NCBI GenBank assembly: GCA_964036295.1
Contig: OZ038462.1
Location: forward strand, 40,467,680 to 40,531,679
Length of the DNA stretch: 64,000 bases
Source: Plumapathes pennacea
Lineage: Eukaryota; Cnidaria; Anthozoa; Antipatharia; Myriopathidae
Reading direction: 5' to 3'
The notes beneath the pieces were generated by a model. The model was given only the letters and a program-made list of their open reading frames with translations. It did no database searches and had not been told where the DNA came from. Below, piece after piece: positions 2,488 through 63,287 of this stretch. The position numbers and the translations under genes are program-made. Position 1 is the stretch's first letter. Each line of letters begins with the position of its first letter.

Positions 2488-5400
2488 ATTAAATAATGCA
2501 AAAGGGAATCCACATCAGGGAAGTAAACTTTTCCATGAGATAGATGTACTCCAGCATCAGAGAAACAAATCTGTACAAGAGAATGATAAGTCAGTTTTCT
2601 CTGTGAGCAGTGTATTTTATAAACATAAATAATTATTCTAACGTAATGTTGTTCAAAATTACCTTGAAATTATACATTTCCTTGTCAGAGCCTGGCTTTT
2701 TGCAAAACACTGTCAGTACCTGACAGGTAAAAGAGGAAAAAAAAAGAAACAACAGTGACATAAGGTGACAGACCATAGTCATCAGGGACAACGGACAAGG
2801 ACTAGGAAATATAGTACAAGAAAGACAGATAGGGATGGAGGAAGGGAAGGGACACAAACATTTTAGGTGCCAGCAAGTACATCCTCACCTTGCAGCCTGG
2901 TGTAGACACTGATTCCCGAACAATAAAGGCACCATTTCGCTCAGTGTCAGGTACATTTCTCAGCTGATCTAGCAAAAACTCTTCATAGTCCTGAATGGAA
3001 TAAGACATTCAAAGACAATGATCTTGAACATAATTAAAAAGTCTTGTGGAGATATAAATGACCAGCATCCATGATCTTTGGACTAACAAGAAACATAGTA
3101 ATGGCAAATGGCATGCAGTACTGTACAGATGGAAGAATGATGTGAGTGGAAGTTACTCAGACAATAAGATTTTTTTTAAAAACTCTGTGACTTACCGCTC
3201 TAGACTCTAGTCTTTTTCGTGGTTCACCTGCATCATTGTCTGATTCTGAACTGATATTGGTTGATGTATATTTCTGTCCATCTTCCACATTGGTTGGGTA
3301 TTCCCGTGGAGGCAGAAGTGGTAGATACTGCTCCTCTTCTGATGATTCCTTGCTACCAGGTGACCTTGCCAGATTGCCATTAAACCCCTGCTGGCCATTT
3401 CCTGCCATTGCTGGTGAAAGATTATCTGTATTTCCATCCATGTTGTTCCCAGATAAACCAACACCAGGGATATCTGGCAATGGAGGTTCCAGGATGGCAT
3501 AGTCAACAGTATCCTGATTTTGTTTTTGATTTTCATCGATATCCTTGCTGTTTGATTGATTGCATTTGGTGCTTCCCACTTCTGGTTCTTCAAGAACGGC
3601 ATAATCAGGGCCGTCTGCTGATGGCAGCTCATCCAAAGTACCCTCTCTCGCAGCTCCTCTCTGTCCAGTTAGAGGTCTTGAAGAAGCAAAATCTGTGACA
3701 TCAACTGAAGCATAGAAATCATCTGGCTTACTCTGTGGGGTTTTTTTCTGACTACCAGTTGACAGTGATGAACCTCTTCGATCGGCATTTGCTCTATCTG
3801 TTCGGTCAAGTCTAGAGCTTAACTCTGGTGTGGGCACACGTGACCTGTTTGCAATGATGGTACTCCGTTGGTTTAAAGAGGCCTCATCATAGTTGGGGTT
3901 CATACTTGCACGACTGGATGCTACACTGCTGGTATCATGCTGTTGACTTAACCTCTCTGCTATACTTCCACTCTGGCTTTGGCTTGGTGCTTAAGATTTT
4001 TTTTTAAACAAGAATGTATCTTAGTACCAGCCAGTAGAATAGCAAACACACGCAAATTAGCCAAAGGAATCACAGTTTTACAATATTTCAAAAAAGAATA
4101 TAAATGATGAAACTTTATGCACTTGGCACTTTTATCTTTTAAAGGTTTTGTTCTTCTTGTGATTGCTGTTTTGTTCTAATACTACATTGTAAATTTCATA
4201 CCTCAATACCTGATGATGACAATATAATGAAATATCATAATTTAGTATATATCACACAAGTATGGTGGCCCATTGTTATCATAGTAAAATTATATACAAA
4301 CTCATTAAAATAGATTTAAATACCTTTAAAAAAATAAGTAAATTAAAAAAAGCCAAAAAAAAACAAATTAATTTGATAAAGAAATGAAAATAAAAGTAAA
4401 GTAATTTAAATTAAAAGTTAAAATTAAAAGTTAATAAAATGCTTTCAAAAAAAAAAATGAAGAGTAAAAAATCCGAATGAAAAAAATGCAAACAAAAAAA
4501 GCTAAGTGAAAAGCGAAAAGGAAATCGATTTTCACATGTCCAACATGGCCCAGCGTTATCATAGCCCGCACTACATCAGGACAGCGACGGTCACGATGTC
4601 ACGTGCCGTAACGCGAGAACAAGATGGCGGCCAGAATAAGAAATCCCGAATGGAAAGACGACGACGACCTGAAGACGTATCTGCAGCAGTACGTCTTGAA
4701 GAATCTGAAGCGTGAAGAAATTTTGGATTTTGTTCAACGAGATTTTTCGCAGTACGCGTGGAGCTTGCCTACACTAAGCAGAAGACTCGCCCACTTTAAC
4801 ATCAAGTATATAGACTATGGTGTTGACATAGAAGAGGTCAAGGCAGCAGTTAGACTGGAAAATGACGGGCCAGGGAGGCTTCTTGGATATCGGGGTATGC
4901 AAAGAAAAATACGTGAGCACCACCAGCTACCTGTTCCTCGAGGCTTGGTGTATGACGTTATGACAGACGTGGACCCCGAGGGTTTAGAATGCAGACGCAA
5001 TGTTGGTGCACCAAAGAAAAGAAAAAGAGGCCCGACTGGCACATTCACCTCTTTGGTAAGTAGACAAGGGATCTTTGATATTAAAGGTCCAATTTCTTGA
5101 GTTGTCAGTCAGATATTTTTATTGCTTGAAAATGAAATTATCAAATGAAAATCATCATCATCATCACCTAAAACCCATGTGTTTATGTTTAATATTCAAT
5201 ACTCCTTCTTGCTCCTATAATCTTCCAGGGACCAAATCACACATTTTCTGGAGATGGTCATGACAAACTTATGGCCTTCATTAGAGACACCTTTCCCCTC
5301 GCTGTCTATGGAATGATGGATGTATTCAGTGGACGTCTGCTTTATTTGAAACTGTGGACATCGAATTCAAATCCTAAGCTAATTGGGAAGTGGTACTTGG

Positions 5401-8400
5401 AGTATCTATATGAGTCCAAAGGTGGGTACCAGTATACCTTTACTACCAAATTTATGTAATAATACAGTTGAACCCCAATATATCAAAGTGCCAAGGGACT
5501 AGTAAAATGTTTGTTGTGACAGTGGTTCAATATAAACGAATCCCTGTTTTATTTCTTTTTGGGTAAAAAGAACATCAAAGCATACCCTGCCTTTCATGAG
5601 GGATAGTACATATATTTGCAGGATGCCAAACATGGACTGCTTCCTCGTTTGGCGTTCAGCATTATGAGGATAGAGTAGGGACAGTGACCCTGCGATAGAC
5701 TAGCAACCCATCCAGGAGGGGAGTAGAAAGACATGTACTCTCGGCTGCTTCATGCTACACATCCGCTTACAGTATCTACAGTGTACTGCAGTCTCTTTTG
5801 TATTCTGCACTAAAGTGCAACCCATGTTGATCCAATTACAGTCATCAGTCACCGTTTGAGGTTGGATAAGGGAACTGAAACTGGAGACATGGCAACAATA
5901 CATTCATTTTTAAGAAGTGGTCATGGCGACATACCCGATCCTGCAGATACTGTTCAATATGGTCCCTCAACAAGTAATAAGGTATCAAGTAATATTTTTA
6001 AGGTTGAACATCATTTTTCTAAGGGTGGTTTTATTTTTCTTTCAGAATTACAGTATTCACAGCATGTACATTGTAAAGTACAACTAGCTTCCAAAAACCT
6101 TTCAATGTGTCAACACCAAATTTCCAGGGGGTGCCGTGGGGTATCAGGAATATTTTTATTTTGTATAGGACTTTCACATAATAATGACCACTCCATATGC
6201 CTCCTGTAGAAAATTAACCTTCTAATGATCATGTACTGTACATGTATTCACCTATATTTCTGTATTTTGCAGATTGAGAGATGGTGGCGTGAGCTCCACA
6301 ATCGTCTTGAGAAGTACTTCAAACGACAATTGAACATGTTGCTAGATCAAGGGCATTATGATCCAAATGATGAGACTGACAGGTAATGTTTACACCAGTC
6401 CATGTACTGTAAATTCACTAGTGGAAGAGGCACAGAAACCAAGAAATGCAACACACACTCCTCTTTGGGTAGGAATCAATCCATTCTTGTGAAAGTCTAT
6501 CGTGGATAATATTTTAGTCACTCAACCCATCCCTCTTCATAAACTGGTCCCCAATTGAAACTTTACTTCTGGTTTTCTCACCTTGGTCTAGAAACCTTTT
6601 GGCCTTTGTGTTCATTCCTGTGATCCAAGCAGAGATGGACATTTTCAAAGAAACTGTGTGGAACTCCCATCGGATCAGGAAGCAAAAGGATGCTCAGTTA
6701 CCAAAGGGCATTCCTAATCATTTATTTAACTTTCCTGAAAGATATGGTGCTGAAGATTGTGGTATGTACCTGAATAGCAGGTGAATCCAGTAAATCTACA
6801 ACTTGAAACTGTTGTCTCTCCACAAGCACATATCAACACATCAAAGCACTTAATCTATCAGTGTCTAACCTTCTTGTGGAATGATAATAGGATGCATTTT
6901 ATAAAATGGGACCAACAGCTGCACCATCATCTATCTATTGTTTCTCAGGAAAAACCAGTAGCACAATGTATGTAATGCTATATTGAAATGTGTGTACCAT
7001 CATTATTCAATCATTTAGGCTGGCCAGTTTTGCAAGAGGCTCTGGATGAAGTGTCAGAATTGTCAGGTGTAATGACTGTTGGCGTTGACTACCTGCCACC
7101 TGCTGTACGGACAGAATGCGAACGCATAATACCAGAGGTCACCAGTGTTAAGCCAGGGGATGCAGCAGACACTTATCTATTCCTGAAGGCACATTATATA
7201 TCACCACAATAAGGTGCATTCAAACATTTTATTGTAATACTTTTGGCTTATGTTCTGAAACATAAATTATTTTGGTTGAATATTCTACAAAATGGAACAA
7301 TAACGCCATTAATAATAATTATTGTTTTGTAACAGTAACAAAATTATGAAGATGTTAGATATTAAAACTGGCCATATGCCCATTGCAAAGGGACAACATC
7401 TGAAACATAATCTTTCTTACTGCATTAAAATTTATCTTCTAAAATCAAATTTACAAATTAGATGTGGCCAGTAATAAGTTCTGCATAGTACATGCTGTAA
7501 CACCAGGCATTGCGACTGGTACATGTATTCTTGTCTTAATGTAACAGTAACAAAATTATGAAGATATGCTAGATATTTAAAGAAATGGACATACACCCAT
7601 TTCACAACATTACCATCTGAAATGTACAGTAGATGTACAGTAATACATTGTAAGTTTTGCATACAATCCCATGTAGTACAGTAACTGGAAGGTTATGACA
7701 ACATGCAACCACCTTCATTAGCTTGGGACTGGCAGCATAACTCTAAAATGATTCTAATCCCATCATTGTGCAGTAACTGTTACATGCATGTTCCTGCAGG
7801 AAATTGTTAATCCCAGTCTTGGAGAGGTTCCCACAGCAGAAATACACTTCCTGTGCATTCATGTCAATAAGCTCATCTGTAGCAATTTCTGGGTCATACA
7901 GATGATATCCAGATCCTTGGATGTCTGTCAGCATCATCTTCTTGTCTGTCATACAGTATGTGTAGTGCACCAAGCATTGTGCCTTGTCAAACAACTGTTG
8001 ACATTCTGTGGTGCATCCAGCTGGAGGTGAAATGCACAGTCCATTGTTGTTCACATACTTTGTGAAGGTGCCTGGGACGAATGTTTCCACTGTGCATGGT
8101 TGGTCATTGTACTCTGTGTAGTACACATAGTTGTAGTGAAAACACTCCTCAAATTCAGCAGGCACCTTTGAGGCAAAGCTTTTGGTAAGATGCCTTGCCA
8201 CAGCATGCATTTGTACCTGCTTGCGTGTGTGGTCTTCAATGGATGTGTTGAGGGTCTCCTTTATTGTTTTCATGGCTTTTTCATTATACATCTTTAGAAC
8301 CCAAACCTGACTTTGGCCTTCCACATTACCAGTGGTGACAGCCTTAAAAGCATCTCTGAATGCACCAGATGAAAACTTTTGAGTGTCAACCAGGAGTTCC

Positions 8401-10913
8401 AACTTCATACCTTGTTGCCATTCACGGGTTTCAACATCAAACTTTTCCATCTCAAGAACTGCTTTGTTTTTTGGTTGGGGTTTAATTAGCTTTCCTGCCA
8501 TAAGAAGTGCATCTATGGACACAGATGCAGGAAACTTTGTTTCAGTAAGGCCAAAATTGTGTTGACTCAATTTTTTGGCCTGTGGTGGTGGTGGTGCATT
8601 ACGTCCCCCCGGTAAGCTACCAGTATTAGAGAAAAAATTATCAAAAGAATTGTTGATTTCTCCTTCTTCCTCTTCCTCTTCCTCTTCCTGCACCCCATCC
8701 TGATCTTGCATTAACACAAACCTCACTAGATACACCTGAACAAAGAAATAGCAAAAGATAAAACAATAAGAAAGAAATAGAAATAAAAAAGTAATAATTT
8801 GGATAAGATTCAGATAGATCAATACATTTACATAATAGTATATGTATATGGTTTCGGGGGGGGGAGGCAATAATTAATATGAGGACCGCTTTGAAGTGAG
8901 TGAGTGAAATATGTAAAGCTGTCATTCAGGATGTAACATACCTTGTCCTTTCGGTGGGGGATTTGAGCAATGTTGGTGCAAGATGGCCCCTTGTTTGAAA
9001 CCAGTATGTCGCATGCGCTTGCCGGAAGACTGAAATGTCGAGCGCACGCTTTTCTCAAGTTAGCTAAGTTAAGCTCCTCGTACTCGAAGGGAACAAACTC
9101 CCGCGGTTGAATTGGACGGTAGGTCTGCTTGTTGTCCGGCTCGGACGACAGCTTTTGCACTACAACTTCATGGGGCGCAGATCCTTTCTTGTTTTTTTGG
9201 CGACCTATTGCATCGGCCCTGGTCCTTTTCCCTCTCATTTTTGCTTGTAAATCATCCCAAACTCCTTGTCGTTTAGGCGGCATTGCTGTTTGATAAACCA
9301 CGTGCGATGAGGCTTCCAGGCTACGGTACGTGACGTCAGTGACCGTCGCTGTCCTGATGTAGTGCGGGCTATGATAACGCTGGGCCATGTTGGACATGTG
9401 AAAATCGATTTCGTTTTCGTTTTTCACTTAGCTTTTTTTTGGTTGCATTTTTTTCATTCGGATTTTTTACTCCAGTTTTTTTTTTTGAAAACATTTTATT
9501 TATTTTTAATTTTAACTTTTAATTTAAATTACTTTATTTTTATTTTTATTTCTTTATCAAATTAATTTGTTTTTTTTGGCTTTTTTTTAATTTACTTATT
9601 TTTTTAAAGGTATTTAAATCTATTTTAATGAGTTTGTATATAATTTTACTATGATAACAATGGGCCACCATACACAAGTGAATAGTGCTTTTCGCACGCT
9701 TTGATTGGCTCCTCAATCTCAGAATATCAAGTACTATTCACCTCCCGGCGGCTTCTGGTAAAACAAAATGGTGTGCGAACCCAGTTTTTGCCCACTTTTG
9801 TTGGGAATAAAATAGCTATTTCGGGAGTTGGCTATTAAACTTGTGTGGTATATACTAAAACAATTATTCGCCTCAGTGGGGACTGTCTGTGAATAGCGGT
9901 GGATATTTACCTTGCCAAAACAGCTCTGTAAATATCCACCGCTATTCACCTCCACTTCGGCAAATAATTGTTAAATATGCTGCGTCATATTTTGATAGTC
10001 ACTTACATCGTACATCATCTCCACTATCCACTGTTCCATAGTTAGAGTATCTTTCTGCATTTCTGGCAATTGGCTGAAAAACCACATAGGCAGCTGTGAA
10101 CACACTCAATCGTACCTGCAACCTGGGACTCAAATATTGATGGTAATAAATTGGGTTCCCAGGCTGTAACCTACTAGCTTAATTATAACAAAGCATTTTA
10201 ATACAAAACAGAAAAATGTAAACAGGAGTACTCATAAACCTACTGTAAGCTGCAAAGCAGTCATGGGAGGGGGACTCCCATATAAAAAAGTCGAAATCAC
10301 GGGTTTTGGTACCACTTTGGGTTCTCGAGATCAAATGCTGACATTTTTTATGTAACATGATACCATTTAGGGGCCAGGTGTCAGTCGAATGGACTTTTAT
10401 TGCATTTGCAAAATAAGATCAAGTCATGCCTATTATAATACTTAGGAGTCAAAACAAAAATATCTGACAAGCATCCCCGTCCCTTTTATGTCAACCCCCC
10501 ACCCCCCCCCGCCCCCCCCCCCCAAAAAAAAACAAACAAACAAAAAATAAGCAGTCCCTTCTAGCTTTTCTTCTGACCCGAGTGTCCTGGACATGAAGAT
10601 AAAGGGGATAGCGATGTGCAACCCCACTCCTCCATGCACCCTTAGCAGAAACATGAGCAGAAAAAGGTCTCACCTGATATGGATACTCTCCTATCGAGGT
10701 AGTGTCGTGACTTCCATGCCTTGCGTATTCGTTGCGACGTTTGCTTCTCCACCGCAGAAAGCAACAGTAAACAAGTAGAATCATCAAGATAAAAATAACA
10801 ACAAGCACAGTGGCAAGAATGCCATATGCAAGGCTCGTGTAGACGCAGTGTTCTTCACCCTCAATTTTTCGATTTTTCGTGAATGCAGGGCAAACAATGC
10901 CATCTTTTCCCAT
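2488..10913 (-). CDS. Membrane-anchored tyrosine-rich SH2 adaptor (3' end unresolved)
   Basis: Exons on the minus strand, all phase-consistent: 10913-10674, 10073-10007, 3989-3196, 2990-2889, 2719-2663, 2570-2488; the last coding exon is uncertain. Exon 1 starts at ATG (10913) and encodes a short Cys-containing ectodomain of about 25 residues without a signal peptide. A membrane span of roughly 20 residues (LAYGILATVLVVIFILMILL) follows, then YCCF, a possible palmitoylation site, and a basic stop-transfer RWRSKRR. Exon 3 is Ser/Pro-rich and full of Tyr motifs (NYDEAS, YASVDV, DYAVLEE, DYAILEPPLPDIP, YLPLLPP), candidate kinase and SH2 docking sites. Exons 4-6 form an SH2 domain with the phosphotyrosine pocket GAFIVRES and a late YFPDVDSLLHY. 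The usual SH2-opening Trp is absent. The layout resembles PAG/LAT-type transmembrane adaptors with an added SH2 domain, so a role in tyrosine-kinase signalling is inferred. Intron 2 contains the transposon at 4261-9672. Confidence 0.72.
4261..4610 (+). repeat. Left terminal inverted repeat of the integrase/alpha-kinase transposon
   Basis: It pairs with 9322-9672 in inverse orientation. Identity is near complete over the outer ~90 bp, then with small indels in the A/T-rich middle (about 4320-4500). Pairing resumes over the GC-rich inner part containing CCAACATGGCCCAGCGTTATC and ACATCAGGACAGCGACGGTCA, and fades after CCGTA near 4610. The inner 60 bp lie immediately before the integrase start codon. 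Confidence 0.92.
4624..7212 (+). CDS. DDE integrase/transposase, IS3/rve-like (transposon-borne, intact)
   Basis: Six exons with canonical borders and matching phases: 4624-5055, 5229-5421, 5842-5981, 6273-6382, 6592-6761, 7019-7212. Total 1,239 nt, 412 aa plus TAA. The start is ATG in AAGATGGCGG. The N-terminal ~140 residues hold a helix-turn-helix-like region (PTLSRRLAHFNIKY) and a basic APKKRKRGP stretch, a possible nuclear signal. The catalytic core follows: Asp153 in SGDGHDKL, Asp217 in RLDKGTETG, Glu257 in SNKIERWW, with 39 residues between the last two, consistent with a DDE integrase fold. A conserved tail contains WNSHRIRKQKDAQLPKGIP. I recall this protein type as repeated uncharacterised integrase-like genes in animal genomes. 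It should cut and join the TIR ends in the nucleus. Nothing disabling is visible. Confidence 0.9.
7213..7742. other. Spacer between the convergent transposon genes
   Basis: About 530 bp between the integrase stop (7212) and the alpha-kinase stop (7743). An imperfect direct repeat is visible: GTAACAGTAACAAAATTATGAAGAT occurs near 7331 and 7541. No ORF of note. It presumably contains both 3' UTRs and polyadenylation sites. Confidence 0.5.
7743..9283 (-). CDS. Alpha-kinase (MHCK/eEF2K type) encoded inside the transposon, intact
   Basis: Two exons: 9283-8942 (114 codons, ending AAG|GTATGT) and 8735-7743 (acceptor TTGTTCAG), phase 0, 444 aa. Residues 1-60 are basic (MPPKRQGVWDDL.., GKRTRADA). Residues ~60-120 form a compact domain (FVPFEYEELNLANLRKA, CDILVSNKGPSCTNI, KVYLVRFV) that may be ubiquitin- or PB1-like; this is a guess. 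An acidic run of eight Glu and a Pro-rich linker follow. The alpha-kinase domain spans ~205-440. Key features are Lys262 in VWVLKMY (ATP binding), VETFVPGTFTKYVNNNG, the catalytic Asp385 in TDIQG, the GNLSKTGINNFL segment, and the zinc ligands His430, Cys432 and Cys436 in EHACNSYC. All the usual alpha-kinase signatures are present, so it is probably an active Ser/Thr kinase. It is convergent with the integrase and lies between the same inverted repeats. Confidence 0.92.
9322..9672 (-). repeat. Right terminal inverted repeat of the integrase/alpha-kinase transposon
   Basis: Reverse complement of 4261-4610. Its outer end is GGGCCACCATA followed by the CACAAG duplication. The inner end reaches to about 40 bp upstream of the alpha-kinase start codon (9283), so the kinase promoter probably overlaps the repeat. 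Confidence 0.92.
9679..9990. repeat. Fold-back repeat beside the transposon insertion
   Basis: An inverted repeat, GAATAGCGGTGGATATTTAC / GTAAATATCCACCGCTATTC, lies at about 9891-9949. Outer arms AACAATTATTCGCC and GGCAAATAATTGTT flank it. A further GAATAGTGC.. / ..ACTATTC pair occurs at 9680-9740. This is a small non-coding MITE-like unit. The large transposon's right edge abuts it. Confidence 0.55.
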
Positions 10914-53973: not shown

Positions 53974-56900
53974 TTAGTTTGTGCTTTGCGCCTTGTTTTC
54001 CTTGTTGAACTTGCTTAATCGTTGCCTGTGCCGCCTTGACCAATACTGGAGAATCTGTCTTTCACTTAATGAATTGTCAGGCCCCACTTCAGCATGTCTT
54101 TTCATTTCAGCCTGACACATGGCTGCAGTGTACCGGGCAGATTTTGATTTTGTCCCAGAGTCATAACACCTGTCCATGACCTCTTTTTGTACATGAGAAA
54201 ATCGAGTATGTTGATTTTTTGGTCTGTGGATCTTTCTGGCCATCCCTTTCAAGTTACTAGTGATTTCTTGCTGTTTGTCCACCAAAGTAGTGTTTCCATT
54301 CTTAGATTTACACACAGTATTTGCACAAGTAATTCTTGACACAGCCTCTGTTATTTTTTGAGGAGCCACATCCTTTGGTGCACAAGCCAGATACATTCTC
54401 TCACACTCTCTGCTGTCTTTGTGCCGTTGCATATTTCCTTTCCTCAAGAAAGATTTTCCACATTGCTCACAGGTAGAAAGTTTTGAAGGGCTCTCAAAGT
54501 TCTGCTCTTTGCATGCTTTAGAATTTTTGTTGGTCATTTGGCATTTTTTCCCTTCCTTTGGTTCCTGGGAAATTAGAGGTTGGGTTTGTTTAGCTGTGTG
54601 TGTGTCAAAATTAGACAAACTCCCTGTTGATGTTGCTGGTGCCTGCAGGAGTTTCTCCAGTTTTTTCGGTGGATAGAGTATTCCATCACCCAAGCGCGTT
54701 TGTTCACGAGCCCGTATCCCACTGCAGCAACCTCCCTCTTTGCCACACAAGTATTCAAAGTCAGAGTAGGTTGTAATACCAAGCAAAGTCTTTGCTGGTT
54801 TTGGTTCTTTTTCCCTGTCGATGAATACCTGATAAACATGAGTCCCTCTGAGTCGTCCTTGAGTGCCTGCAATAATGTCTTCACTGCTTTCAACGTTGTG
54901 TCCTTTGTGCCTGTAAGACCTCAGGGAAAATTTCAGTGTTGCATAATGTGAATCAAGCTTTGTTTTACCCTTTTGTGGCTCAAAGTTGGAAAAGTTGTCC
55001 AGCTGAATGTCAGTTACTGATTTGAAGGAGGCAAGCCATATCACCAAGGAAGTGTTCTTATAATGTGGACCATTGTCTGACCAAAGTTTCATGTTTGTTA
55101 TTTCTGGATGGAGTGATTTGAAATTAGTTGTAGCTTCCTCCAGGCAGCTGGCTGAGAAAAACCAGTTTTGAGTGTCATCTGAATCAGAAAATGTATCATG
55201 AAATTCGGTGATGAGTTTTCCATCTTCGGTCTTAAACATAAACATTACTCCATGGAGAGAAACACCCTTTTTTCCATACCACTCTCGTTGTGGCTCATAG
55301 AGCTTTTGAAACATCAGTTTCATCATAAAGTCACTGACAGCAATTACTTCTCCAGGCTTCAGAAGATTTATGTCTTCAAGAAATTTGTCTCTTTGAAATT
55401 TACCCCTTATTAGGTGTCCAACATATGCATTTAACTTCTGCTCGATTTCTTCAAGTTTTTGGTGAAGTTCTTTTTTGTTTTCATTTGTGCAATTTAGTTT
55501 GGTGATGCTTGCTTTTATGTCCTCGAATACTGTGATCCGTTCCATACAATTCATGCACTCCATGGAATGGCTTTCTTCGTCGTGATCACATTTCCCTCCC
55601 AACTGCCAAGTCATGCAGTGGCTTGCACATGTATCATTCATCCTGAGATTTCTTTGAAAATCCGAAAGAAGATAACCTTTCAAGGCTTTAAGTCTGGTTT
55701 TTATATCGGTGTATGGGCTTTCTGTGGTATTATTTTCATTCCAATGGAGTTCCATTTGCTCAACAAGAGCTGACAAGTTTTGGAAGTTTTCAGCACCATA
55801 TTCACTACAAATGTTACACAAGCCTGCCAATTCTGTTAATTCTTTAAAGTTGCCTGCCTCGAGACCTTGATAAAACATTGATTGACTGATGACCCGTCTT
55901 CCATTTTTGTTTGCCTCTTGACGGTACATGTGATACAGCTTCGCCTTATTATGTTTTAACCATAACACAGGCTGTGTTCCACCCCCCATTAGGTCACTCA
56001 ACCAGGACTTCTTTTTGCCTTCACAGGATGCATTCCTATAGGATGATCGTTCTACACAATCAGAATTGTGGATGAAGTCTAGAAGAAATGCTATATCTTC
56101 CACTGGGATATAAAATTGCCTTGCAGATCTTGGCTGTTTGGAAGGTTTTTGGAGGCCAGAGCCAAACAGATGGAAGTGCTTTCTTGCTTCTGTAATTTCA
56201 TAATCTGTGCAAGTTAGCTCTTGCCCTTGTCTTCCAATGTAGTGAAACTTTTTCTTAAGTTGGGCATTATTCAAGGTGTTTGCCACACAGCTCAGTATCC
56301 GTAGTCTCTCAGCTGTATTTGCAGCTCTTGAATAGGAGAGTGCCATACCATATACAAAGTTTTCATTTGTGCTCTGGGTGGGCTAAGGAATAATGTGGTG
56401 TGTAGGGTGTGAAAATACTGTATGCAGTATCATTATTTTATTATTCTACTACTGTATATGGCCTGAATAAAAGGAGAGTGGAGCAAGATTTTAAAGATGT
56501 CAATAATATTGTATACTGTCGTTATACTGTCATTATAGTGTCTAACATTGCTGACTTTTATTTGCATATAAATGTACATAAAGTTCAATTGACAGACCCA
56601 AAACAGATAATCCAGGGGTAATTATTTTATTAGCTCAAAGTATTCAATATTATTTTTGTCGTTTCAATAAACCTATTGTTTTGTTTTGCCAGTGTACCAT
56701 CAAACTTGGCATATTATTTTTCTATTTTCCACAAGACCATAGTTTTCTGAGACAGGGGGGGGGGGGGGGGGGTCCATATTTGGCTGCAGAAAAATAAGTG
56801 ACCTACCTGCTCTTCCTCCTTCATTATGTCTGCCAATAACTGCTTCCCACAATTCCCACTTATTTCATCCAGAGTTTCATTTAGAATGGCCTCAGCCTTT

Positions 56901-61354: not shown

Positions 61355-63287
61355 TCATTTGTTACGCTGCATCTGATAGTTCCTTCGCATGTGCTTAACC
61401 TTTTGGTAGGCCCTCTCTGCGCCTTCTGCCTCAACCATGTCGTGAGTATCTGGATTGATGCGGAGTTTTCTGATGATAGATGCCCTTGTGGGTACCGTTG
61501 CCCCGGTTATCTCAGATTGGCAAACAGACCTTATTTTCTCTGTGTTTGCCCTTGACCAGTGTCGCCGTCTCGAGCCCCAGCTGGCAGTCTCAGATGGCGG
61601 AATGACGTTAGAAAACCCAGAGAGCAGCGTTACCTCGTCGTCATCTTGAGATTCCAAGGAGGCTCTCTTCTTATGGTCATCCATTGGCTGGGGTCCCTTC
61701 ACATCAGACTCCATGCCCTGCTGTTGATCTTTAGGTTTCTTCTTCGTGGAGGAACACTCATCCACGTCAAGGAGAGTAGCTACAGTATCGTGCGCTTCTG
61801 ACGCTGCCTTTATCTTGTTTACCAGGTTGTACCACCTGTCAGCGGTGCTCCGGCTGTGGCCCATCTTGCTCGCCAGGCTGTTCTTCTCTGGCGAGCTTAG
61901 ACCTCTGGTATTGGTCACGACAAAGTGCCGTAACATGCTTGAGCAAAACGCTGACAGACTTTCCTCTCTCAGGCAACCTGTACATACAGCAAACTGTTTT
62001 AGGGCGTGGTGCACATGCGAGTTGGTATACGGCGATCCAGTTGAATTGAGGAACATTGCATCTGTCTTGACAGTACCATTTTGTGCCAAGAGTGGGCGAA
62101 AATGATGGATGTACTTGCCTATCATCAGCTTAAGGTCGTTGGAGAAGTTGAGAATTAGTCCTCCTCTGGTTCTGGTTGTCTTCTGGTTAGAGATGTGGAC
62201 GGTCCACTTGTCATCCACCATCCGGCCATTCTCGAAGGTGCTTAGGGTAATCTCGGCCACTGGGCCAGCCCTACTGGCATTCTCCATGTTGATGTTGTAG
62301 ATTAAGAGGTTACGGACTGCAACCGCGTCCTCTGTGGTCAGCTTGTAGCGTCGTGGGTGCATGAGCATCTGTCTCATTTTCTGCACATGCTCTGAGGACT
62401 GGATGTTTTTCATTTCCTCTTTCGCTGGAAGATTTTTCTCGGCCTCCCATTCCACCTCAGCTCGTTGCTGTGCTATCGTTTTCCCCCACGCTTCTCTCCA
62501 GTTACTCTGGGCGTCTCTGAGATCTTCTAAAGCTTCCCTCTTCTCTGAGGACAGTGATTGGCGCATAGATTTCACGGCAAAGGACAGAAAACGCTGTAAG
62601 CTCGTAGAGTAGCAAGAGAGCGTTTTGCTGCAGTACCCCTGTGATCGGTCTTGTTTTCGCAGCTCTAGCTGGCGCTTGAAGAACTGCTTATAAACAAGGT
62701 CCTTGTTGAGGAATACATCCAGGTCTCGCGCGTCGGGGTCTACAGCCTTGGCGATGGTCGCCACATGATGGCACATTTGGCGAATCATGGCTGGTGTTTT
62801 TTGGTGCCATCTGGGGTGGCAAGGTGTAAATTCCACCCTCTTAGCAATACCTGAAAAGCAGACGTCGCTGTGCATGTGCCTTGGCTTCTGGCGCTTGTTC
62901 TTGTCCTGCTGTGGCTGTATGGGGGCGCACCTCTGCAGCCTCCCGGTCAGCTGATCGTTCTGCTGTTAGTGGAGCAGCAATCTCTTTCCTGGTTGCTGTA
63001 AGGGGACGTTCTGGTTGTACCGAATTGTCACTGTCCTGTTCCTTTTCCTGGTCTTGTTCTTCATCTTCTGGTCCAACAACTTGTAGAAGTTTATTTGCAT
63101 ACTGGCGCAAAAGAGACCTGGCGGAGCGCTCGTCATTCATACCCTTTGGTAGAAATGCCAAGTGTTTGCCAACACGGCAAAAGTGGTGGCTCTGGAGGGT
63201 TGACGTCAAGAAGGCAGCTCGCTGAGACAAATGTGGTTGCTTATCATCAGTGAGAACTTGCTCTATCAGCAACTCAATTGCTTGAGC
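61355..63287 (-). pseudogene. Crypton-like tyrosine recombinase with a probable frameshift
   Basis: Two overlapping minus-strand frames. The first is open from 63287 to 62841 (first ATG 63140): SARSLLRQYANKLLQVVG, an acidic linker and KAHAQRRLL. The second, 62875-61355, gives about 506 codons. They join sensibly if one base is out of place in the TTTT run near 62850; no intron fits there. The second part holds a tyrosine-recombinase core: an N-terminal SAM-like helical region, Arg ~202 in NASRAGPVAEITL, SSMLRHFVVTNTRG with Arg ~316 and a following His, GHSRSTADRWYNL with His ~340 and the candidate nucleophile Tyr ~349, then an acidic linker and a basic C-terminus. Animal genomes have Cryptons, and genes derived from them, of this type. 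No start ATG precedes 63140, so an upstream exon may exist. Confidence 0.72.

Follow-up and report, generated by a model that had tools for sequence, protein, structure and literature searches.

The window, as we call the whole analysed stretch of 64,000 nucleotides from the anthozoan Plumapathes pennacea, contains an element of 5412 bp in which a transposase gene and an alpha-kinase gene point towards each other between long inverted repeats. Its features are listed below; the splicing of both genes was predicted from sequence and homology.

4261-9672: whole element, 5412 bp, with ends TATGGTGGCCCA...TGGGCCACCATA and CACAAG on each flank
4255..4260, no strand: target-site duplication CACAAG, left copy
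4261..4610, + strand: left terminal inverted repeat, 350 nt, starting TATGGTGGCCCA
4624..5055, + strand: transposase exon 1, predicted start codon 14 nt inward of the left repeat's inner edge
5229..5421, + strand: transposase exon 2, with the first catalytic D, D153, in DGHDKL
5842..5981, + strand: transposase exon 3, with the second D, D217, in LDKGTE
6273..6382, + strand: transposase exon 4, with E257 in IERWW
6592..6761, + strand: transposase exon 5 (gene model)
7019..7212, + strand: transposase exon 6 and stop (gene model)
7213..7742, no strand: space separating the 3' ends of the transposase and kinase genes, 530 bp
7743..8735, - strand: alpha-kinase exon 2, encoding the linker, the catalytic domain and the zinc residues
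8942..9283, - strand: alpha-kinase exon 1, encoding the N-terminal module, whose last few residues lie in exon 2
9322..9672, - strand: right terminal inverted repeat, 351 nt, finishing TGGGCCACCATA
9673..9678, no strand: target-site duplication CACAAG, right copy

The two repeat arms (350 and 351 nt) are 94.9% alike over the 353 columns of a gapped alignment; within them, two stretches that align without gaps cover 198 nt (96%) and 101 nt (98%). The nearly identical repeats of about 350 bp and the clean CACAAG duplication described in a first-pass annotation of this DNA are therefore present. The element termini, TATGG..CCATA, fit the IS3EU pattern TAYGG..CCRTA with its TA..TA marks. No open reading frame of at least 80 aa in the window's ORF list overlaps the gap at 7213-7742.

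The element is flanked by two frames at 3157-3903 (-) and 10491-10913 (-), which share one strand. One has a transmembrane-like stretch and the other repeated DYA(V/I)LE motifs, and neither gave a Pfam match above the cut-off. Both may belong to a single host gene for a membrane protein, as exons on either side of an intron in which the element would sit. Further along the window, long open frames are found at 53974-56346 (-), which has a zinc-finger-like stretch, and at 61355-62875 (-), which we take by eye to resemble a tyrosine recombinase of the Crypton kind.

The transposase and the alpha-kinase

The transposase is predicted to be a protein of 412 aa, encoded by six exons in a stop-free frame with five introns that are all GT-AG. 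Residues 145-325 match the Pfam domain rva_4 (PF24764) at 6e-18. The DDE residues D153, D217 and E257 are conserved at 98-100% among 93 aligned transposases, and 39 residues lie between D217 and E257. This agrees with the intact DDE integrase annotated earlier. An HHCC motif upstream of the DDE core is absent, as residues 1-145 hold only H57, H99, H100 and C123 as candidates. The assignment to IS3EU, which had also been proposed, is in line with the ends, the 6-bp duplication and the DDE core lacking HHCC, and the transposase, by domain an rva_4 protein, would then be expected in the IS3EU/GingerRoot clade.

The kinase gene has two predicted exons for a product of 444 aa and is convergent to the transposase gene; its predicted start codon lies 39 nt past the inner edge of the right repeat. 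The product matches the Pfam domain Alpha_kinase (PF02816) at 1.1e-32, with 114 bits against a curated cut-off of 21.3, and no second Pfam domain scored above the cut-off. K262, H371, D385, Q387, H430, C432 and C436 are conserved at 96-100% among 151 aligned kinases. We take K262 to be the ATP lysine, D385 and Q387 to be the catalytic Asp/Gln, and H371, H430, C432 and C436 to be the zinc residues. With the expected catalytic and zinc residues in place, the kinase appears to be as intact as the first-pass annotation had claimed. Sequence matches in the PDB were obtained with 1ia9 (1.6e-12), 3pdt and 3lkm (2e-11 to 3e-11) and 7shq (1.4e-6), and the solved structures closest in sequence are those of TRPM7, MHCK-A (myosin heavy chain kinase A) and eEF2K. 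The catalytic domain is thus like that of these three proteins by sequence; the N-terminal module has no credible relative in Pfam or the PDB.

This module of about 85 residues precedes the linker and is common to the aligned full-length relatives with few exceptions, one of which is P0081, where part of it is missing. Q43, C80, G99 and C102 are conserved at 100%, and C91, D92, P100, S101, R119 and F120 at 95-99%. When four N-terminal pieces were searched against Pfam at E up to 10, a single weak match was found (Fin, 0.15), which is below the cut-off. Among the 27 matches from a PDB profile search of the module (E up to 10), the best had an E of 0.33 and none was credible; most were short, Cys-rich alignments with coronavirus spike chains, and they were taken as chance. 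By eye, the module gave the impression of a ubiquitin- or PB1-like fold, for which the Pfam and PDB searches gave no support. The module may serve as a contact site for a substrate or partner. Viral contigs scanned with the kinase alignment yielded 18 pattern matches, of which none was confirmed.

Copies, subfamilies and relatives in other animals

The genome (290 Mb, 24 contigs) contains 25 matches to the left repeat. Six copies, including the one in the window, have both ends, and each is flanked by a different perfect 6-bp duplication (CACAAG, GTCAAC, CTGTAT, CAGTAG, CAGGTG and CTGATG). This recurrence of the same two ends at five further sites rules out a chance arrangement. Both genes are present in five of the six (the window and four others); the sixth, L012, is internally deleted. 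Identity to the window is 99.5-99.8% in the four other copies with both genes. In four of the five two-gene copies the kinase frame is open (it is frame-shifted in L013), and the transposase frame is likewise open in four, L009 having a stop. Loci L014-L020 of the repeat search represented single ends, partial or diverged copies or other families and were left out of the six; one of these, L015, is a 97% partial copy that keeps parts of both genes. Because the copies of the window family are near identical, they are judged to be young, and the element appears to have been active recently. At L013, a 1.3-kb insertion (6294-7625) breaks one repeat and has element bases 165-168 on both sides, which suggests another mobile element with a 4-bp duplication.

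It had been proposed to look for further copies that hold the kinase between matching repeats with 6-bp duplications, and four such copies exist. Two separate elements, or their repeats, might by chance have come to surround a host kinase gene. This view, in whose favour nothing was found, is contradicted by the finding that the unit has moved as a whole, with six copies that have both ends and their own duplications, five of them carrying both genes, and we consider its probability to be practically negligible.

Alpha-kinase sequences were detected in 63 matches at 55 merged places in the genome. We examined the 30 best-scoring matches (L021-L050), which lie at 29 places since L021 overlaps L041. 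These loci are not independent, as four of them belong to the window family: L029 is the window itself, and L028, L030 and L031 are copies of it. Transposase sequence (E up to 1e-4) was found within 1.5 kb of the kinase in 27 of the 30 loci, or 26 of the 29 places, the exceptions being L026, L038 and L045. Three more of the 55 places were covered through L013, L015 and L019, which lie outside L021-L050; the kinase is accompanied by a transposase at L013 and L015 and not at L019. These numbers bear on the idea that the element is kept because its kinase is of use to the host, for example under stress or in defence. Alpha-kinases do include ALPK1, a sensor of bacterial sugars. However, such a role is very unlikely, as the window-family copies are near identical and so young, and as the kinase is seldom by itself, the transposase being present at 27 of 30 loci.

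Conversely, of 116 merged rva_4 places (from 150 of 151 matches), only 7 have an alpha-kinase match at a distance of up to 6 kb and 109 do not. This count carries little weight for two reasons: it favours unspliced integrases, the window's own split gene not being among the matches listed, and the kinase-free example with the best score, L059/L060, shares only 25% identity with the window transposase, this being the one family compared. It is a repeated unit of 4.4 kb (L059 1760-6172, L060 1817-6212; 97.8% alike) with a 525-codon rva_4 integrase frame. A frame on its opposite strand has a RING/TRAF-like Cys/His pattern by eye, and the unit gave no significant kinase match.

Eight loci were chosen as separate subfamilies and the far side was added to each (E22, E24, E25, E27, E33, E35, E46 and E50), their gene models being chains of tblastn matches. 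The transposase and kinase genes are convergent in all eight. A long pair of inverted repeats was found in seven, E24 having none. Perfect 6-bp duplications flank five of the eight (GACGTG for E22, CTATTG for E35, CCAGTC for E33, GTCGTG for E27 and GAGGAG for E25); that of E50 matches at 5 of 6 bases, and E46 has no matching duplication. L019 (C5:15523544-15525682), a derived copy of 2.1 kb, has ends of the E35 type and a fragment of the kinase but no transposase; it is flanked by CTGGTGTG on each side, which is 8 bp rather than 6.

The 11 perfect 6-bp duplications in this genome (six from window-family copies, five from other subfamilies) have C or G at position 1 in 11 of 11, A or T at position 2 in 10 and at position 5 in all 11, and G or C at position 6 in 10. 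This bias is a symmetric target preference, as expected for joining of the integrase type.

The start codons also lie close to the repeats. For the transposase and the kinase, the distances to the repeat edge are 31 and 22 nt in E35, 25 and 15 nt in E22, and 7 and 13 nt in E27; the transposase starts 31 nt past the edge in E33, 15 nt in E46 and -15 nt (within the repeat) in E25. In four elements (the window, E35, E22 and E27) both genes therefore start 7-39 nt beyond the repeat edges. The start codons of the other elements were chosen by homology, and in several the open frames extend further up.

Across the nine subfamilies (the window and these eight) the kinases are 34-61% identical and the transposases 45-69%. 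The presence of the kinase in other copies and in eight further subfamilies is at odds with the notion of a one-off passenger that the first-pass annotation had allowed for. Judged by these sequences, the kinase appears to be a stable second gene of the transposon lineage.

For other animals, the best 120 of 159 kinase relatives, the best 120 of 259 transposase relatives and, in a second kinase search with an alignment as query, the best 120 of 342 were considered. The named hosts among the matches listed are mainly anthozoans (among them Exaiptasia, Paramuricea, Oculina, Desmophyllum, Stylophora, Pocillopora, Dendronephthya and Actinia), many rows having no name. Among these rows Ciona has matches to both proteins, Saccoglossus to the kinase, and Clytia, Patella and Lottia to the transposase. 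We then compared the 239 kinase rows and 111 transposase rows that give a record length. Eight lengths are common to both. Judged by equal length, kinase and transposase relatives share six records of at least 64 kb (64267, 85488, 374143, 3130359, 4408652 and 12273785), the longest of which say little about closeness; the shared lengths 1503 and 1668 are too short for both genes and were taken as coincidence. The clearest pair is the Exaiptasia kinase LOC110237033 (P0350) and transposase LOC110237035 (P0127), which have nearby gene numbers on a contig of 374,143 bp. Invertebrate relatives of about 350-470 aa carry the names TRPM6, myosin heavy chain kinase or eEF2K; these are probably transposon genes.

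Selection on the kinase and its partnership with the transposase

Pairwise codon models were applied to open stretches of the kinase domain from nine representatives (the window, L022, L024, L025, L026, L027, L033, L035 and L046); L026, which has no transposase nearby, stood in place of E50. An omega of 1 was rejected in all 36 between-subfamily pairs (LRT 24.9 to 138). The highest omega was 0.277. Because dS was saturated in most pairs, these values say no more than that omega is 'well below 1'; where dS was lowest (two pairs, about 2.5), omega was 0.12 and 0.28. Omega ranged from about 0 to 2.1 in eight close pairs that differ in 1 to 22 codons; this spread is as expected for copies that decay or drift after insertion, and these pairs lend no support by themselves. 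The dN/dS check suggested in the first-pass annotation therefore came out in favour of purifying selection between subfamilies and not among close copies. Selection thus seems to preserve the gene between bursts rather than within them, as would be expected if the transposon itself depends on it.

These data also speak to whether the kinase is a host gene that was captured once and is now a passenger without function. Transposons do carry captured host genes, so that such a capture has precedent, and the kinase at L038 differs in sequence and looks host-like by eye. However, a related kinase with the same N-terminal module occupies the same convergent place in nine diverged subfamilies, and neutrality was rejected for every one of the 36 pairs. 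We regard the passenger explanation as highly improbable.

The kinase and transposase distance matrices correlate at 0.42, a value reached in 740 of 20,000 permutations. Without E22 the correlation is 0.67 (239 of 40,320 permutations) and without E35 it is 0.36 (4,167 of 40,320 permutations). The agreement between the kinase and transposase trees is therefore only moderate. In 33 of the 36 subfamily pairs the kinase is less conserved than the transposase, and two of the three exceptions involve E22. E22 (L022 plus L052) has a kinase that resembles those of E50 and E25 at 58-61% and a transposase that resembles all others at 46-52%. E22 thus seems to join a kinase and a transposase of different lineages, possibly through an exchange of gene modules between transposons, although this discordance could also have come from recombination or from the use of match chains as gene models.

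The kinase might phosphorylate its own transposase or the assembled complex, and so set the activity, timing or location of transposition. Since both genes begin beside near-identical repeats they are probably co-expressed, which would suit such a partnership, as would the moderate agreement of the trees. On the other hand, the lower conservation of the kinase in 33 of 36 pairs would be odd for a strict partner, and the E22 kinase is close to those of E25 and E50 while its transposase stands apart from all others. We therefore consider the transposase an unlikely substrate, though by no means an implausible one.

Described relatives and the possible role of the kinase

The view in the first-pass annotation that no described transposon system pairs these two enzymes does not hold. 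In the fungi studied, all TET+ IS3EU families are reported to have a transposase and an alpha-kinase in opposite orientations, with a TET/JBP gene between them (Kojima 2025, PMC12730594); in the text of that paper that was accessible, 'alpha-kinase' appears twice, both times in section 4.1. The window element resembles these families in its 6-bp duplications, TAYGG..CCRTA ends and repeats of more than 30 bp, and in carrying a transposase and an alpha-kinase in opposite orientations within one element (PMC12730594, as described in the accessible text). It differs from them, as far as this text goes, in that its host is an animal and its intergenic gap holds no TET/JBP gene and no open reading frame of at least 80 aa. 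The fungal and window kinases were compared by published description (PMC12730594).

IS3EU elements, which have been in Repbase since 2013, are marked by TA..TA termini and usually 6-bp duplications, and the IS3EU/GingerRoot DDE core is without a preceding HHCC motif, according to the available portion of PMC10045372. The window element shares all three marks described there (PMC10045372): the TA..TA termini, the 6-bp duplications and the lack of HHCC before the DDE core. Unlike that account, in whose main text the word kinase has a count of 0, it adds an alpha-kinase (PMC10045372). No account of animal alpha-kinase transposons was found among the matches listed from the open-access literature, and earlier database entries, for instance in Repbase, are possible. 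Going by the accessible texts, the window element is a member of a known but barely described kind, and its animal form is apparently new in print.

Taken together, we consider it almost certain that the window holds a transposon that carries a conserved kinase gene. Our explanation as a whole, namely a young, autonomous-looking transposon of the IS3EU type with a conserved helper kinase, has in our estimate a probability of roughly 0.75. The proposed mechanism is as follows. Because the start of each gene lies a short way inward of one repeat, we infer that the near-identical repeats may act as twin promoters that co-express transposase and kinase. The transposase, a DDE enzyme of the integrase type, would bind the repeats and join the element's ends to target DNA cleaved with a 6-bp stagger, as is suggested by knowledge of the family and by the duplications. 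The alpha-kinase, made alongside it, would aid transposition, a helper role that is proposed from its conservation. It is probable, as judged from the sequences, that the kinase is needed for the spread of the element or helps it. The kinase would more likely phosphorylate a host nuclear or chromatin factor than its own transposase, because in 33 of 36 pairs it is conserved less well than the transposase and because of the seemingly mixed lineages in E22. Whether a host factor is indeed the main substrate, in preference to the transposase, we regard as evenly poised.

More tentatively, and with somewhat less than even confidence, the alpha-kinase with its N-terminal module may be an ancestral core gene of an animal/fungal branch of IS3EU that predates the present groups of those kingdoms, co-expressed from the twin repeat promoters and phosphorylating a nuclear factor of the host so as to lift its block on transposition. 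In this respect it is relevant that the alpha-kinase family of rust fungi has been called highly expanded, with 79 and 39 members in two genomes (PMC4469406, available part); a transposon origin would explain this expansion. If the ancestral-core reading is true, the alpha-kinase expansions of rusts and the 55 places found here would mostly be transposon genes.

Hardly anything has been written on eukaryotic DNA transposons that keep a protein kinase as a permanent second gene; a single passing mention was found in the accessible literature (PMC12730594). Our findings also carry a warning for annotation: invertebrate proteins of 350-450 aa labelled 'TRPM6-like', 'MHCK-like' or 'eEF2K-like' may be transposon genes, and the same may apply to alpha-kinase expansions that are counted by domain. 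If the kinase helps transposition, it would offer a direct route to the host factor that limits transposons of the integrase type, in much the same way as the TET/JBP enzymes borne by transposons point to DNA methylation.
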